Source: Spirochaetota bacterium | GTDB taxonomy: Bacteria; Spirochaetota; UBA4802; UBA5550 | Direction of reading: 5' to 3' | DNA length: 64,000 nt | Assembly: GCA_025457915.1 (NCBI GenBank) | Contig: JALOTL010000007.1 | Location: 1 to 64,000, forward strand | Program-made: the position numbers and the translations under genes | Notes under the pieces: model-generated | Database searches by the model: none | Seen by the model: only the letters and a program-made list of their open reading frames with translations | What the model was told of the DNA's origin: nothing | Part shown: positions 4,225-39,592 of the stretch, in pieces | How positions within the stretch are numbered: the first letter of the stretch is position 1 | Layout: each line of letters begins with the position of its first letter

Positions 4225-4860
4225 TCACCTTTTCGCCAGCTCGTCTATTATCGATTTCCTTACCTGAATGAATGTTTTCAGCTCCGCCATGGAAAATTCA
4301 AAAAATACAGGATCAAGTTCTTCCTGTGTTTTGTTTATCATTTGATCTAATTCAATAATTTTTAATGAAGTGATGCTTCTCAGAAGGAGAAGCGTATCCT
4401 TTGTAGAATTTTCATTATTAATTTCTTTTTCTGCCAGCATTCTTAACATATACCTTTCCGCCGGTATGCCCGTTTTGGTATATGCGTCAAAATGTTTTTG
4501 CTGTAATTCAATAGCCCTCTGCTTTTCCCTGTCAGGTGCATCCAGGCCCTCATTTTTTATCTTTGTTTTATATTGCTCAATCGCCTTTTTTTCATCAGAT
4601 GAAATTATATATTTAAATTCGGTTTCTTTTTCGGGAAGAAGACAAGGGCAGGCTTCATCGGATTTTTTAATAAAATCCCTCATGTCCTTCAAAACGGTAT
4701 TTTTTTGATTTTCATTTAATATTTTGGCATTTGTTATATTTGAAGCGGCCAGGGTAAGATAATTTCTTTTATTGTCGCTCAGTGAGTCAGAGCAGGAAAC
4801 AAGGAAAAGACAAAAAACCAGACCGGGTAAAAAAAATTGAAAAAAATTAAGTTTTTTCAT
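4225..4860 (-). CDS. Envelope cassette 1: lipoprotein of unknown function
   Basis: 211 residues with a type II signal peptide (KKLNFFQFFLPGLVFCLFLVSC, lipobox LVSC). The mature part is helical and charged, with a conserved CPCLLPEKETEFKYII segment and a strongly conserved C-terminus (ELKTFIQVRKSIIDELAKR). It is the third gene of a cassette with the SGNH hydrolase (18 nt upstream) and the outer-membrane-like protein. A second copy on the other strand at 38967-39592 shares these same segments but is frameshifted. No known family recognised. Confidence 0.8.
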   Translation of the reverse strand: MKKLNFFQFFLPGLVFCLFLVSCSDSLSDNKRNYLTLAASNITNAKILNENQKNTVLKDMRDFIKKSDEACPCLLPEKETEFKYIISSDEKKAIEQYKTKIKNEGLDAPDREKQRAIELQQKHFDAYTKTGIPAERYMLRMLAEKEINNENSTKDTLLLLRSITSLKIIELDQMINKTQEELDPVFFEFSMAELKTFIQVRKSIIDELAKR

Positions 4861-4878
4861 AACTCATCCATCCATAAA

Positions 4879-6126
4879 TTATATCGGCGTTGATTTGTAA
4901 TATAAATCATATGTATAAAAGCCCCAGCCGAGTTTAAAGATTGATGTAAGGACAACATAATAATCAATCTGCATGCCGCTCGAATTTCCGCATACATCAA
5001 TTGCCTTAACTTTTATTTGTCCGGATTCTCCCATGGAAATGTTTGTGTTTAATAAAACCACATATTGGCCTCCGCCGACCTGTTCGGCATTTTGTACGTC
5101 CAATATTCTACCTGTGTCATTGATAAAAAAAGCAAGAGGAACAGGAGCATTTACGACTCCGAAGGCGCCCAATCCATGGAAAACACCTCCTGTTGGACAT
5201 ATGAACGAAGGCGGGATTGAATCCCCCAGGCATAGGGATTCGTTTCTTTGAAACCATCCCAGACTTGTTAGTCTCCTGGCTATCATTCTTCCCCATTCTA
5301 TATTTCCCAGATCGGTAAAGTGTATTCCGTCAGAATAATATAAATAAATCATCAAGGGGCCGCCTGCTATCACATTATAGAAAAAAAGTGTAGTTCTTAA
5401 AAACTGGACACGGTTTTCTCCATATATTTTTTGGAGGCGGGGAATAAGGTTGTCCCTGTATTTGAGGTTCATAACCTCGACCATGCAATTTGCTAAAAAA
5501 ACATCTTCAGATTTCAGACCAAATTTATTTACAAAATCTGTTAAGACTATCGGGGCAATATCATTCAACAGAACGCAATTTTTATTGGTTACATCCTGGT
5601 TCAGAATATATTTGATTAAAAAATCATTATTCATCGAAGCGATGTCTGCGGTCACCTCGGCGTACCAGGATAAAATGCACATGCTTAACCAGGCTTTATC
5701 TATTGATTTGCTTAATATTCCAGTTAATCTTCTGTATATATCCTGAGTGATTATTCTTGTCGGTTTTCCTCGGCCTAAATCTATCATTGGCAACAATATA
5801 TCATTGCCGCCAAGAGAAATTATTGAAATATCAGTATTAAATTTAATATTATTTAAAATAACATATCGAGGCCAAAAGCAAGATGGGCTCATGCTTGCTG
5901 CCTGATTAATGAAGATCATTGCATCACGCTCTTCCTGTTTTATAATATATTCTTTACCACCTTGGACATATTCTGAATCACGTATGTATATGTTTGGTTT
6001 ATTAGGGTCAATTTTAAAACCCCCTAAAAAATCAGCCCTGCTATCGCCGATAAAGGTAATGGTTTTTGAATAGCTATAAGAAGTTGAAAGAATTATTAAA
6101 AACATCAGATTGAAAATAGTTTTCAT
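4879..6126 (-). CDS. Envelope cassette 1: secreted SGNH/GDSL-type hydrolase
   Basis: 415 residues from ATG 6126, which has AGGAG 7 nt upstream; a longer TTG start at 6132 is less likely. A signal peptide (MKTIFNLMFLIILSTSYSYS) is followed by SGNH block I (TFIGDSRADFLGG, nucleophile Ser), block III (SLGGNDILLP) and block V (SDGIHFTDLG, Asp and His of the triad). Such enzymes hydrolyse acyl esters on lipids or glycans. The C-terminal about 110 residues after PPSFICP look like a beta-sandwich (HYR-like) domain ending KSTPI. The paralogue at 37636-38949 keeps the same blocks. Substrate unknown; location periplasm or cell surface. Confidence 0.8.
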   Translation of the reverse strand: MKTIFNLMFLIILSTSYSYSKTITFIGDSRADFLGGFKIDPNKPNIYIRDSEYVQGGKEYIIKQEERDAMIFINQAASMSPSCFWPRYVILNNIKFNTDISIISLGGNDILLPMIDLGRGKPTRIITQDIYRRLTGILSKSIDKAWLSMCILSWYAEVTADIASMNNDFLIKYILNQDVTNKNCVLLNDIAPIVLTDFVNKFGLKSEDVFLANCMVEVMNLKYRDNLIPRLQKIYGENRVQFLRTTLFFYNVIAGGPLMIYLYYSDGIHFTDLGNIEWGRMIARRLTSLGWFQRNESLCLGDSIPPSFICPTGGVFHGLGAFGVVNAPVPLAFFINDTGRILDVQNAEQVGGGQYVVLLNTNISMGESGQIKVKAIDVCGNSSGMQIDYYVVLTSIFKLGWGFYTYDLYYKSTPI

Positions 6127-6180
6127 AATCAACTCCTGTTATAGGTATTTAAGGTCTAAAATCTTAAATATTTAAAAAAA

Positions 6181-6909
6181 TCATGAACCAAATCTATAGA
6201 TAATCGATATATATATATTACCCGAATATCCGATTCCTGTTGAAGTTATATACTTTGACATACTGCTCAAATACAACATCCATAAATTGTACTCGATTAA
6301 AAACGGATTAGATGCTGTATAAAAGGGATTTGTATATGCATAAAAAACTATATTAAATGCAGAGCATTTAATATTTCTAACAAGCAATGAAATACTGAAA
6401 GCTGTCTGAAATGAAAGAGTAATGCTGTCTGAAATATGATAATTCAATCCTAGTACAGGCCCTGAAAATAAAGTGAATAATTTAAATCTATTTCTAAAGC
6501 CCGCTCCTAATCCGAATTGTGGACCCAGATAAAATCGTACTGTCGAAGATGAATATACACCGAAACCAAAATCATTTATCAAATTAATCCTTGGAATATT
6601 AATTTGATGTTTTTTATTATATAAATCAGAGGAAGGAATATCGGTACTGCTTGAACCAGAAATATATTTAAACCTTTCCCGGTATCTATCAACCCCCAGA
6701 TTCAGCCTGTAGTTGAATCCCTCCTTATCGACATTGGTATCGTATAGCAACCCGCCGCCCATCATCGATATGGATGGAAAGCCGCCGTAATACTTGTTTG
6801 ATATGCCGCCTCCTCCAGTGACATACCCGCCGAAACCGGAAGCGGCCATGCAGTTTATTGCCATGAAAAACACGAAACCGGCAAACAGAATGACTGTTAT
6901 CTTTCTCAT
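6181..6909 (-). CDS. Envelope cassette 1: predicted outer-membrane beta-barrel protein
   Basis: 242 residues. The signal peptide (KITVILFAGFVFFMAINC) is almost identical to that of the paralogue at 36887-37573. The mature part is Gly- and aromatic-rich with alternating strands (FRFYLGPQFGLGAG type repeats) and no helices, typical of a small outer-membrane barrel. It has GGAGACC before the ATG and is first in the cassette behind the promoter at 6968-6996. Function unknown; possibly the surface partner of the SGNH hydrolase. Confidence 0.65.
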   Translation of the reverse strand: MRKITVILFAGFVFFMAINCMAASGFGGYVTGGGGISNKYYGGFPSISMMGGGLLYDTNVDKEGFNYRLNLGVDRYRERFKYISGSSSTDIPSSDLYNKKHQINIPRINLINDFGFGVYSSSTVRFYLGPQFGLGAGFRNRFKLFTLFSGPVLGLNYHISDSITLSFQTAFSISLLVRNIKCSAFNIVFYAYTNPFYTASNPFLIEYNLWMLYLSSMSKYITSTGIGYSGNIYISIIYRFGS

Positions 6910-6967
6910 TTGGTCTCCTTATTACATAAGCGTTGATTTTGTGATAAAAACGACAAAAAATTTATGA

Positions 6968-6996
6968 CATTATAGCAGAGTCGTCAATTTTTGTCA
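6968..6996 (-). promoter_or_regulatory. Sigma-70 promoter of envelope cassette 1
   Basis: On the minus strand TTGACA (6991-6996) and TATAAT (6968-6973) are both consensus and 17 bp apart. The second cassette has the same two hexamers with the same spacing and a similar spacer (ends GACTCTGC in both). Confidence 0.88.
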
Positions 6997-7007
6997 ATTG
7001 GGCATTT

Positions 7008-7040
7008 TACCTATAAAAAACATAGGTGATTTTACTGAGG
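7008..7040 (-). repeat. Conserved block with palindrome upstream of the cassette promoter
   Basis: The 20 bp at 7021-7040 are identical to 36756-36775 upstream of the other cassette. They run into an inverted repeat ACCTAT-N8-ATAGGT (7008-7027) that lies just upstream of the -35 box; in the second copy the matching repeat is CTATG-N5-CATAG (36771-36785). Position and conservation suggest a regulator binding site. Confidence 0.65.
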
Positions 7041-7205
7041 AGATTAATAGTAGATGCCGTACATGTATTGGGAAAGAGTATCATCTTAAGAATCATATTT
7101 CTGAAGGGTCATAATGGGAATAATATCGAACGGGGGAGCGCTGACAGCAATAAAATAATGCATCCATGAGATGGACGCGCCGGGGCCGGTCTGCCCGGTC
7201 ATTCA

Positions 7206-36629: not shown

Positions 36630-36755
36630 ATGGAAGTCTAAAAAAAAATTCTGATGCATTTACCCCAATGATCAAATGAAAAAAACAGTGATTCCCCGCT
36701 GTATGCCATCAGTATGATGTAACTCGGGAGTTCATTACAGATATATATTTAATCC

Positions 36756-36785
36756 CCTCAGTAAAATCACCTATGTTTTTCATAG
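36756..36785 (+). repeat. Conserved block and palindrome before cassette 2 promoter
   Basis: 36756-36775 is identical (inverted) to 7021-7040. It overlaps the inverted repeat CTATG-N5-CATAG at 36771-36785, 13 bp before the -35 box. Confidence 0.65.
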
Positions 36786-36798
36786 TCAATATCACCGA

Positions 36799-36827
36799 TT
36801 GACAAAAAGTGATGACTCTGCTATAAT
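36799..36827 (+). promoter_or_regulatory. Sigma-70 promoter of envelope cassette 2
   Basis: TTGACA (36799-36804) and TATAAT (36822-36827), 17 bp apart, both perfect consensus and arranged exactly as in cassette 1. A leader of about 50 nt follows, which is also partly conserved (AATCAACGCTTAT in both). Confidence 0.9.
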
Positions 36828-36886
36828 GCCACAAATTTTTTGTCATTTCCAGTAATAAATCAACGCTTATAGATTAAGGAGATCAA

Positions 36887-37573
36887 ATGAGAAAGATAAC
36901 AGTCATTCTGTTTGCCGGTTTTGTGTTGTTCACGGCAATCGACTGCATGGCGGCGCCAGGGTTCGGCGCGTACGTCAACGGCGGCGGGGGCATGAATTTC
37001 CAGAAGTACGGCATCCATAATATCGGGGGAGGACTGCTCTTCGACACGAACGTTTCAGGCGACAGGCTGTTCAATTACAGGCTGAATATCGGCGTGGACC
37101 GCTGGCATGAAGAGTTCATGATAAGCGAATACAAGTTTTTTGAAAAGCCTGTAAACACTAAATCAATCGATTATCCGAGACTTCACATCAACAATTCATT
37201 CGGTTTCGGATTGATAAAAGAGAAGGACTACAGGCTCTGGCTCGGTCCTCAGATAGGTTTCGGTTTCGGCTTCAGCAAGAGGTTCAGACTTTTCACCGGT
37301 TCGATTGGACCGGTACTTGGATTTAATTATAATCTGTCCGACAGGGTCACCTTCGGTATCGAAGGATCGATCATGACATCAATCGAAGATAAAATCTATA
37401 AAAAATATGCACCGTATGAAATCGGCGCACCACCTTCTATAGTATGGAAATTAGCATATTTAGGTTTCCCTATACAATGGTATCTGCATCAACACAGGGT
37501 CAATAAATCCATGATTGATGGGTCAATAATCGGGAATATTTCATTAAGCATTATATACAGAATTGGCGAGTGA
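36887..37573 (+). CDS. Envelope cassette 2: predicted outer-membrane beta-barrel protein
   Basis: 228 residues. The signal peptide (KITVILFAGFVLFTAIDC) is nearly the same as in the paralogue at 6181-6909. Conserved mature segments are GGGLLFDTNV, NYRLNIGVDR, FGFG and LGPQIGFGFGFSKRFRLF. The middle and C-terminus differ, as expected for surface-exposed loops. A GGAG site precedes the ATG. First gene of the cassette. Confidence 0.65.
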   Translation: MRKITVILFAGFVLFTAIDCMAAPGFGAYVNGGGGMNFQKYGIHNIGGGLLFDTNVSGDRLFNYRLNIGVDRWHEEFMISEYKFFEKPVNTKSIDYPRLHINNSFGFGLIKEKDYRLWLGPQIGFGFGFSKRFRLFTGSIGPVLGFNYNLSDRVTFGIEGSIMTSIEDKIYKKYAPYEIGAPPSIVWKLAYLGFPIQWYLHQHRVNKSMIDGSIIGNISLSIIYRIGE

Positions 37574-37635: not shown

Positions 37636-38949
37636 ATGGCGATGAGAACAAAATTATTTCTAATAATAATAATGTTGATACCATTTGCGGGTTACTCAAA
37701 AGATTTCACTTTTTTAGGTGATAGCAGGGCGGCGATGTTGGGAGGTTTAACATTTCCAATTCCTTTATTTCAACAAAATGATGAATTACCTAAATTATAT
37801 ATAAAAGATGTAACATGGGTTGATGGAAGTCCGGAGAAAGTTTTAAAAGGCGATGATATTATCTTTAAAAAAAAAGCTTTATCTATGTCGATGTCGGGAT
37901 TATGGGTCCAATGGACAAATGATTACAAAGCAAACATCAGCAAAGGCGGCCTGCCGTATCGTTCCGATGTCAGCCTTATTTCTCTTGGCGGCAACGACTA
38001 TCTTGTACCTGCAATGATTGGTGTCCCTCAGCATCTGTCAAAAATGATATCACAGGACATCCTGAAATATATTTCTCATCTTCCATATGAAGAAGCAGAA
38101 ATCACCCGTTATCTGGTTTATTGCATTTATTCATGGTATGCAGAAACAACAGCGGATATTGCAGTGGCAAATACCGGTTATTTAATGAAATTCATTCTGG
38201 ACTGTGATCCGAATAATAAAATAATTTTAAATGATATCGCACCGGTTTTAATGATGGACCCAATGGTTGTAAATTTAGAAGCAAATACTCCAAGAAAACT
38301 AGACGTTGAATTCACCTGCATAATGAATCACATGGTGGACGTATTGAATATGAAGTACAGGGATGAATTGATGCCTTCATTGAAATCAATCTATGGCGAC
38401 AGGGTCCAGCACCTGAAAACCTTCACGTTTTTCATGACGGCAATACAGTTGTGGGACATCCAGCATTACTGGCCGTTTATATATTACAGCCTTGTCGACG
38501 GCGTTCATTTTACATTTTTGGGTAACATGACCTGGGGAAGAATGGTGGCAAAAAAAATCGGTGCTCTTGGATGGTTCAACAGGGCGGACTCGATATGCAA
38601 TTCCGACTCAACGCCCCCGACATTTAATCTGCCGTCTTCCGGATGCATTCCCGGCATCGGAATGTTCGGTATACTTAATACACCGCTCCCATTAGATTTC
38701 ATCATTAAAGACAACGGAAGGGTGATGGACGTGGAGAACGCGGAACAGCTTCTGGGAGATTCATACAGGATTTATTTGAACAACAACATGCCTGCAGGCA
38801 AGGAAATGGAGCTGGACATAGTAGCGAGGGACACCTGCGGCAATCCTTCGGGATATAAAATCAGGTACTGGATGGCGATTACCGGCATGTGGAGGGCGGT
38901 CTGGGGCTTTTACAGTTATCTCCTTTTTTACACCTGCACTCCCATATGA
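37636..38949 (+). CDS. Envelope cassette 2: secreted SGNH/GDSL-type hydrolase
   Basis: 437 residues with a signal peptide (RTKLFLIIIMLIPFAGYS). Catalytic blocks: TFLGDSRAAMLGG (Ser), LISLGGNDYLVP, VDGVHFTFLG (Asp, His). Conserved C-terminal domain from PPTFNLPSSGC to YTCTPI. Upstream AAGGTGAC is the ribosome site. Paralogue of 4879-6126 with the same neighbours; intact. Confidence 0.8.
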   Translation: MAMRTKLFLIIIMLIPFAGYSKDFTFLGDSRAAMLGGLTFPIPLFQQNDELPKLYIKDVTWVDGSPEKVLKGDDIIFKKKALSMSMSGLWVQWTNDYKANISKGGLPYRSDVSLISLGGNDYLVPAMIGVPQHLSKMISQDILKYISHLPYEEAEITRYLVYCIYSWYAETTADIAVANTGYLMKFILDCDPNNKIILNDIAPVLMMDPMVVNLEANTPRKLDVEFTCIMNHMVDVLNMKYRDELMPSLKSIYGDRVQHLKTFTFFMTAIQLWDIQHYWPFIYYSLVDGVHFTFLGNMTWGRMVAKKIGALGWFNRADSICNSDSTPPTFNLPSSGCIPGIGMFGILNTPLPLDFIIKDNGRVMDVENAEQLLGDSYRIYLNNNMPAGKEMELDIVARDTCGNPSGYKIRYWMAITGMWRAVWGFYSYLLFYTCTPI

Positions 38950-38966: not shown

Positions 38967-39592
38967 ATGAAAAAAATCATTAAGATGCTGTCAGTTACAA
39001 TCGCATTTATAAGTTTTCTCTCCTGTTCCATCTTGAGTGACGGCAAAAAAGATGGATTGGGACTTCTAATCGGTTCCGGTATCGACAGGACTGGGAAATT
39101 AACATCTACACAGAAAACAGCTGTTATAAAAGAAATGACCGAGTTTTATGAAAAAGTCGATGAAGGCTGTCCATGCCTGGTTCCGGAAAAGGAAACTGAT
39201 CCGAAATATATTATCGGCAAAGAAGAGAAAGCGGCGCTTGATTCATACAGAAACGGCATCAAGGCAGACGGACTTGACAGACCGGATAGAAAAAAGAAAG
39301 AATTGAGCTTCTGCAGGATAAACACTTCAAGGCGTATGCGGAAGTCAGCATCCCTGCAGAGCGATATTTGATGAAAACGCTCGCGCAGAAAGAAAAAAAC
39401 AACGAAAAATGCACGGTTCCGATTTTGAAGGCACTGCAGAATATTACATCAGCGAAAATCATAGAGCTTGAATCAACCATTAATGAAAACGGGAAAGGCC
39501 TTGATCCATTATATTTTGAATTCATGAATGCCGAACTCAAGACTTTCATACAGGTAAGGAAGTCCATTATAGACGAGCTGGCCAAGAGGTGA
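38967..39592 (+). pseudogene. Envelope cassette 2: lipoprotein gene, frameshifted
   Basis: ATG 38967 has GGAGG 7 nt upstream. A lipobox (ISFLSC) and the CPCLVPEKETDPKYII segment match the intact copy at 4225-4860. After DGLDRPDRKKK, in the A-rich run at 39288-39301, the frame shifts by one base. The second part (IELLQDKHFKAYAE-like in the other frame, through FMNAELKTFIQVRKSI and IDELAKR at 39592) is well conserved. One indel thus separates otherwise good halves. A real mutation, a sequencing error or slippage on the A-run are all possible. Confidence 0.8.

Follow-up and report, generated by a model that had tools for sequence, protein, structure and literature searches.

A recombining barrel-SGNH-lipoprotein locus in a spirochaete and a candidate lipoprotein partner domain of SGNH enzymes

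What do a barrel-like protein, an SGNH hydrolase-type enzyme and a lipoprotein do together, and why does a spirochaete hold several copies of their genes that are alike at the front and diverged behind it? The question is raised by a stretch of 64,000 nucleotides (the window) on contig C19 of a draft genome (G000), compared here with relatives that are mostly drafts as well. The original prediction placed the trio twice in the window, in the same order and on opposite strands, and both trios are found there. The count holds for the window and falls short for the genome, because the 3.66-Mb draft contains four trios: copies A and B in the window, copy C on contig 35 (C35:3283-5996) and copy D on contig 44 (C44:29983-32676).

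Copy A lies on the reverse strand and consists of the barrel gene (6181-6909), an open reading frame for a signal peptide and a beta protein of ~220 residues; the SGNH gene (4879-6126), which encodes a signal peptide, a catalytic domain and a C-terminal beta-type domain and whose start is taken as the ATG at 6126, where the list of open reading frames has the TTG at 6132; and the lipoprotein gene (4225-4860), an open reading frame that the family alignment resolves into a lipobox (LVSC) and a helical domain given the name LIPO. Copy B lies on the forward strand, with open reading frames for the barrel (36887-37573) and the SGNH enzyme (37636-38949) followed by the lipoprotein gene (38967-39592). 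Two lipoproteins had been described in the window; the copy A reading frame is intact and that of copy B is broken near 39300, its N-terminal part running from 38967 to 39296 and its C-terminal part continuing in another frame from about 39314. This frameshift may mark a real pseudogene or an assembly error, and an assembly error could account for the frameshift but not for four independent trio contexts. The broken lipoprotein means that copy B, at least, can exist without this component, or is decaying.

All four trios have the order promoter, barrel, SGNH and lipoprotein with every gene in the same orientation and intergenic gaps of 15 to 81 bp, and the best explanation is that each trio is an operon with its own sigma-70 promoter. 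The trio was also considered as a mobile or transposable element, and this was ruled out: a comparison of copies A and B shows no terminal inverted repeats bounding the trios, and there is no transposase in the trio. The copy A inverted pair 4213-4228/6941-6956 is 81% matched over 16 nt, sits off the edge of the block and has no counterpart among the copy B pairs. A separate 58-bp relict of the trio lipoprotein 3' end, 93% identical to copy A, is located 164 kb away on the contig at C19:168243 (L026:6244-6301), where it is joined to the remnant of an IS3-type transposase.

The front of each trio is a shared leader composed of the promoter, the 5' untranslated region and the signal peptide. The copy A promoter (6969-6997, reverse strand) is TTGACA-17-TATAAT with a TG before the -10 element, and the copy B promoter (36799-36827, forward strand) has the same TTGACA-17-TATAAT arrangement; each matches the consensus at 12 of 12 positions. 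Copy D also has a full TTGACA/TATAAT promoter, and that of copy C is weaker. The copy A leader block (6668-7043, reverse strand) has 84-96% DNA identity with the other trios compared to about 50-60% beyond it, and the tract that it has in common with copy D extends to about 6668. The copy B block (36753-36993, forward strand) is 84-90% identical to A, C and D. The earlier description of nearly unchanged promoters and signal peptides in front of a diverged mature barrel is thus accurate, with leader identity of 84-90% in every pair and about 50% for the rest of A against B or D. A search of the 3.66-Mb genome with the leader block returned the four trio loci only, a likeness well outside what chance would give, and an Rfam search of the leader matched no known RNA element.

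Synonymous sites distinguish between two causes of this pattern. Divergence of the body by selection alone predicts an even synonymous difference along the gene, and the observed difference is uneven, which attributes the likeness of the leaders to recombination. In the A-D barrel comparison, the synonymous difference is 0.06 in codons 1-25, 0.11 in codons 26-50, 0.42 in codons 51-75 and 0.5-0.96 beyond. For A-B, A-C, B-D and C-D, it starts at 0.35-0.40 in codons 1-25 and lies mostly at 0.5-1.0 in the rest of the gene, and the B-C profile is itself a mosaic. Permutation of polymorphic sites identified significant tracts between A and D (7020-6668, p<0.0005), between A and B (7043-6975, p=0.0005) and between B and C (p of 0.0005 or less), and none in A-C or C-D. 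B and C, with about 85% DNA identity, are recent duplicates; outside the leader, about 50% of the DNA agrees between A, D and the B/C pair. At the protein level, the copy B barrel is 77% identical to that of copy C and 48% to that of copy A, and the copy B SGNH enzyme is 45% identical to that of copy A. The barrel tree is ((A,D),(B,C)) with support of 94/96, the A+D pairing retaining 85/89 when the leader is removed, and it conflicts with the SGNH tree, which is ((A,(B,C)),D) with support of 98/97. The uneven synonymous difference, the permutation tracts and the conflict between trees together support recombination among the copies as the cause: the copies recombine, with the leaders staying alike while the bodies shuffle. 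Diversifying selection as the cause of leader likeness is rejected by the synonymous/non-synonymous profile. The divergence of the mature barrel had been read as the mark of a surface-exposed or adaptive protein, a reading the data do not sustain, since synonymous sites are saturated there and non-synonymous change lies below synonymous change nearly everywhere.

The enzyme is classified by its motifs and a TesA profile match as a distant member of the SGNH hydrolase superfamily. Conservation of the catalytic residues, on which the original prediction depended, is complete among 10 homologues: the block I GDS (Gly29, Asp30 and the nucleophile Ser31), the block III GGND with its oxyanion Asn (Gly108, Asn110, Asp111; GxND) and the block V DxxH (Asp268 and His271) are invariant. 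The family profile matches the structures of TesA (E=1.4e-4), DUF459 and PatB, and either esterase or acyltransferase activity is conceivable. Relative to these SGNH/GDSL hydrolases, including the PatB-type O-acetyltransferase, the trio enzymes have the GDS, GGND and DxxH blocks in common and differ in a GDSR motif, an extra C-terminal beta-type domain of ~100 residues, a dedicated lipoprotein partner and scores below the Pfam cut-offs. Copy A scores 16 bits and a homologue from a relative (L088) 30.9 bits against a gathering cut-off of 32.9, which is a convention and not a biochemical feature. The LIC10707 family hydrolase of Leptospira (NCBIfam NF047594) is likewise a spirochaete SGNH enzyme, and copy A reaches 22.8 bits with that model, far under its cut-off of 380 bits. 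A secreted subtilase in the relative G019 (L093:7078-8871) has a C-terminal domain in common with the SGNH proteins (E 3e-5, 23-29% identity).

The trio lipoprotein is defined in the family alignment by a lipobox, a conserved CPC motif and a C-terminal AELKxxIQxRxxxIDELxxR tail. LIPO corresponds to no known family in Pfam and was absent from the plasmids searched. Its model, built from 4 sequences, is all-helical with a pLDDT of 50.6, which makes it uninformative as the query of a Foldseek search that found no solved-fold match at E<=0.001. A LIPO domain lies beside a same-strand SGNH gene at about 16 loci in 9 Spirochaetota genomes (393 genomes searched), and an SGNH neighbour is present at every examined LIPO locus with an intact flank, a set that leaves out threshold matches in G001 and G212; the remaining clear LIPO matches are cut by a contig end. 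Both profiles were built from few sequences, the most distant SGNH matches (G136 and G213) are weak, and the weaker loci of G116 and G132:C92 match the refined profile by construction because they belong to its build set. Matches in G118, G146 and G070 were taken as chance, the neighbourhoods in G118 and G070 being unrelated. The SGNH family itself occurs in 6 genomes among 148 relatives that include the window genome, with G019 represented by the C-terminal domain only.

The relatives also indicate where LIPO may have come from. In locus E, G012 and G132, a DUF4382 lipoprotein is followed by a fusion of a metzincin-like protein with LIPO and then by the SGNH gene, with small lipoproteins between the fusion and the SGNH gene in G132. 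G012 is a member of the same family as the window genome and carries a homologous SGNH locus. In G221, a single chain of 928 residues joins DUF4382, metzincin and LIPO, and its gene precedes the SGNH gene. G132:C92 preserves a complete zinc motif (HEFGHALGLDH); in E and G012 the Glu is missing from it (HHIGHAxGLxH), and G132:C1, G132:C53 and G221 no longer have it (KQLGYVIGFFT in the series). The whole metzincin domain is absent from G020 and from the trios, which keep only the end of the chain as LIPO. Most simply, a protease-like partner would have lost first catalysis and later the domain that carried it out, with LIPO retained for its service to the SGNH enzyme; the order of these steps is inferred. 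Locus E is a divergent fifth SGNH locus on the contig of the window (C19:191.1-195.4 kb; L027:3109-7427; SGNH gene at C19:194185), and the stretch read there contains the DUF4382 lipoprotein, the metzincin-like protein, in which His takes the place of the catalytic Glu and which is fused to LIPO, and the SGNH enzyme, with no barrel. The intact metzincin with a LIPO-type tail (L157:4115-5359) is upstream of a LIC10707-type SGNH gene, and at that locus (G132:C92) DUF4382, metzincin-LIPO and small-lipoprotein genes precede the enzyme, which is the same type of locus.

The barrel has a different distribution. It has no sequence match in Pfam or the PDB, and its model consists of predicted strands with a pLDDT of 36.5 from a two-sequence alignment. 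The best structural matches of this low-confidence model are 8-strand outer-membrane barrels of the OmpW, OmpA and NspA type (best Z 11.8 to OmpW in a structure search), from which the trio barrel differs in being a spirochaete-lineage paralogue family with no sequence match to them. Six further barrel paralogues occur in the window genome outside the trios, and the family is present in 15 genomes among the 148 relatives (window genome included) with up to 14 copies each. One paralogue (L025:4650-5399) adjoins trio D on the opposite strand and has a signal peptide unlike that of the shared leader. Barrel and SGNH genes are linked in the window genome only and the 14 other carriers of the barrel show no such linkage, so the part of the barrel in the module rests on one genome. 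The original prediction would have failed if the three genes were found mostly apart elsewhere; this is the case for the barrel, and the lipoprotein domain and the SGNH enzyme stay together.

A constant front with a variable body recurs in two Leptospira-like genomes, G082 and G049, as tandem arrays of small-lipoprotein and truncated SGNH genes (L149:5652-9677, L150:7223-10405 and L155:5161-12651) accompanied by one or two full-length SGNH genes. On G082 contig 37, identity among the lipoproteins is 81-96% in the leaders (68 residues) and 20-30% in the bodies; the SGNH fragments agree at 38-56% up to the GDS block and at 81-99% past it. In G049, two leaders are 99% alike over 247 nt. The vls system of Borrelia is a form of cassette variation with constant ends and a variable middle (PMC9102653), and the G082 and G049 arrays resemble it in their constant ends, variable middle and truncated tandem copies near a full-length gene. 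The window-genome copies differ from vls in being dispersed, in each having its own promoter and in having bodies that are 20-45% identical rather than 90% or more. A promoter in front of every copy argues against a single expression site, and antigenic variation by one expression site with promoterless silent copies was rejected for this genome, where A, B and D have full promoters and C a weaker one.

We give even confidence to a reading in which the LIPO lipoprotein keeps an exported SGNH enzyme at the envelope and probably assists it there, the barrel acts as an outer-membrane partner specific to this lineage, and the set exists in several recombining copies. Each trio operon would produce an exported SGNH-fold hydrolase or acyltransferase and a lipid-anchored partner whose helical LIPO domain is dedicated to it. 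LIPO would dock or activate the enzyme at the membrane, and the role of the lipoprotein as a tether, suggested in the original prediction, is plausible. The substrates of the enzyme may be ester-linked groups, either of the envelope or of polymers outside the cell. The barrel, a recruit of this lineage, may provide the site in the outer membrane, and with four copies the cell could run several versions of a single surface activity, all controlled by the same regulatory leader. LIPO could instead be a foldase-like helper, as Lif is for lipase. This is a tentative possibility by analogy only, since the sequence comparison with Lif failed. Both arrangements consist of a secreted hydrolase and a neighbouring membrane-anchored protein predicted to be helical, LIPO has a lipid anchor or a membrane segment and is an obligate neighbour of a secreted hydrolase gene, and two genuine lipase and Lif (PF03280) pairs in the window genome (L135:1438-3514 and L136:1423-3476) mean that the organism has this kind of partnership at its disposal. 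LIPO, however, is a lipoprotein that in relatives forms the tail of a protease-like protein, and it has neither a Pfam Lipase_chap match nor a sequence relation to the two Lif proteins of the genome (hhalign probability 0.1-0.2), which rules out Lif homology.

Ordinary family expansion, in which duplicated operons drift with occasional neutral gene conversion where they are still similar and the barrel is a passenger, is possible though doubtful. The numerous barrel paralogues, unlinked elsewhere and reaching 14 per genome, fit such a history, as do the broken copy B lipoprotein and the lipoprotein relict in the insertion-sequence remnant, but the frames of A, C and D remain open and the catalytic motif survives despite saturated divergence, and similar constant-leader arrays recur in G082 and G049. 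The original prediction favored a surface-glycan acyl-modifying set with a barrel under diversifying selection. The SGNH profile does match both PatB-type O-acetyltransferases and TesA-type esterases and the barrel bodies do differ, but pS exceeds pN in nearly every barrel window and is saturated outside the leader, and the flanks read contain no evident glycan-synthesis genes, which leaves this reading improbable. An effector and immunity pair comparable to the type VI lipase effectors, with the SGNH protein as a phospholipase-type toxin against other bacteria and the lipoprotein as its periplasmic immunity protein, is very improbable: the linkage of a secreted hydrolase to a lipoprotein, the duplicated copies and the truncated SGNH copies in relatives would suit it, but the SGNH protein has an ordinary signal peptide, no secretion-system genes are evident in the flanks read, and LIPO, unlike immunity proteins, is conserved and in relatives joined to DUF4382 and metzincin parts. 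A broader form of the envelope-anchored enzyme reading, which we consider unlikely, is a previously undescribed Spirochaetota surface-enzyme system in which an SGNH hydrolase works with a lipid-anchored domain left over from a metzincin, and its envelope partner (the barrel here, the small lipoprotein in G082 and G049) is diversified by recombination between constant leaders and constant ends with the truncated-copy arrays as donors.

No described system of the trio composition was found in Pfam, NCBIfam or the literature searched, in agreement with the original prediction. The literature search, with subscription journals outside it, returned no report of DUF4382 with spirochaetes, and none for Leptospira of a locus combining SGNH and lipoprotein genes or of silent cassettes. 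If the envelope-anchored enzyme reading is true, an unnamed domain can be predicted to act as a dedicated SGNH partner throughout the phylum, including the relatives of Leptospira, and the metzincin series would illustrate clearly how an enzyme can become a partner protein. The pattern of a constant leader and a variable body in three lineages would make surface variation in environmental spirochaetes directly testable.
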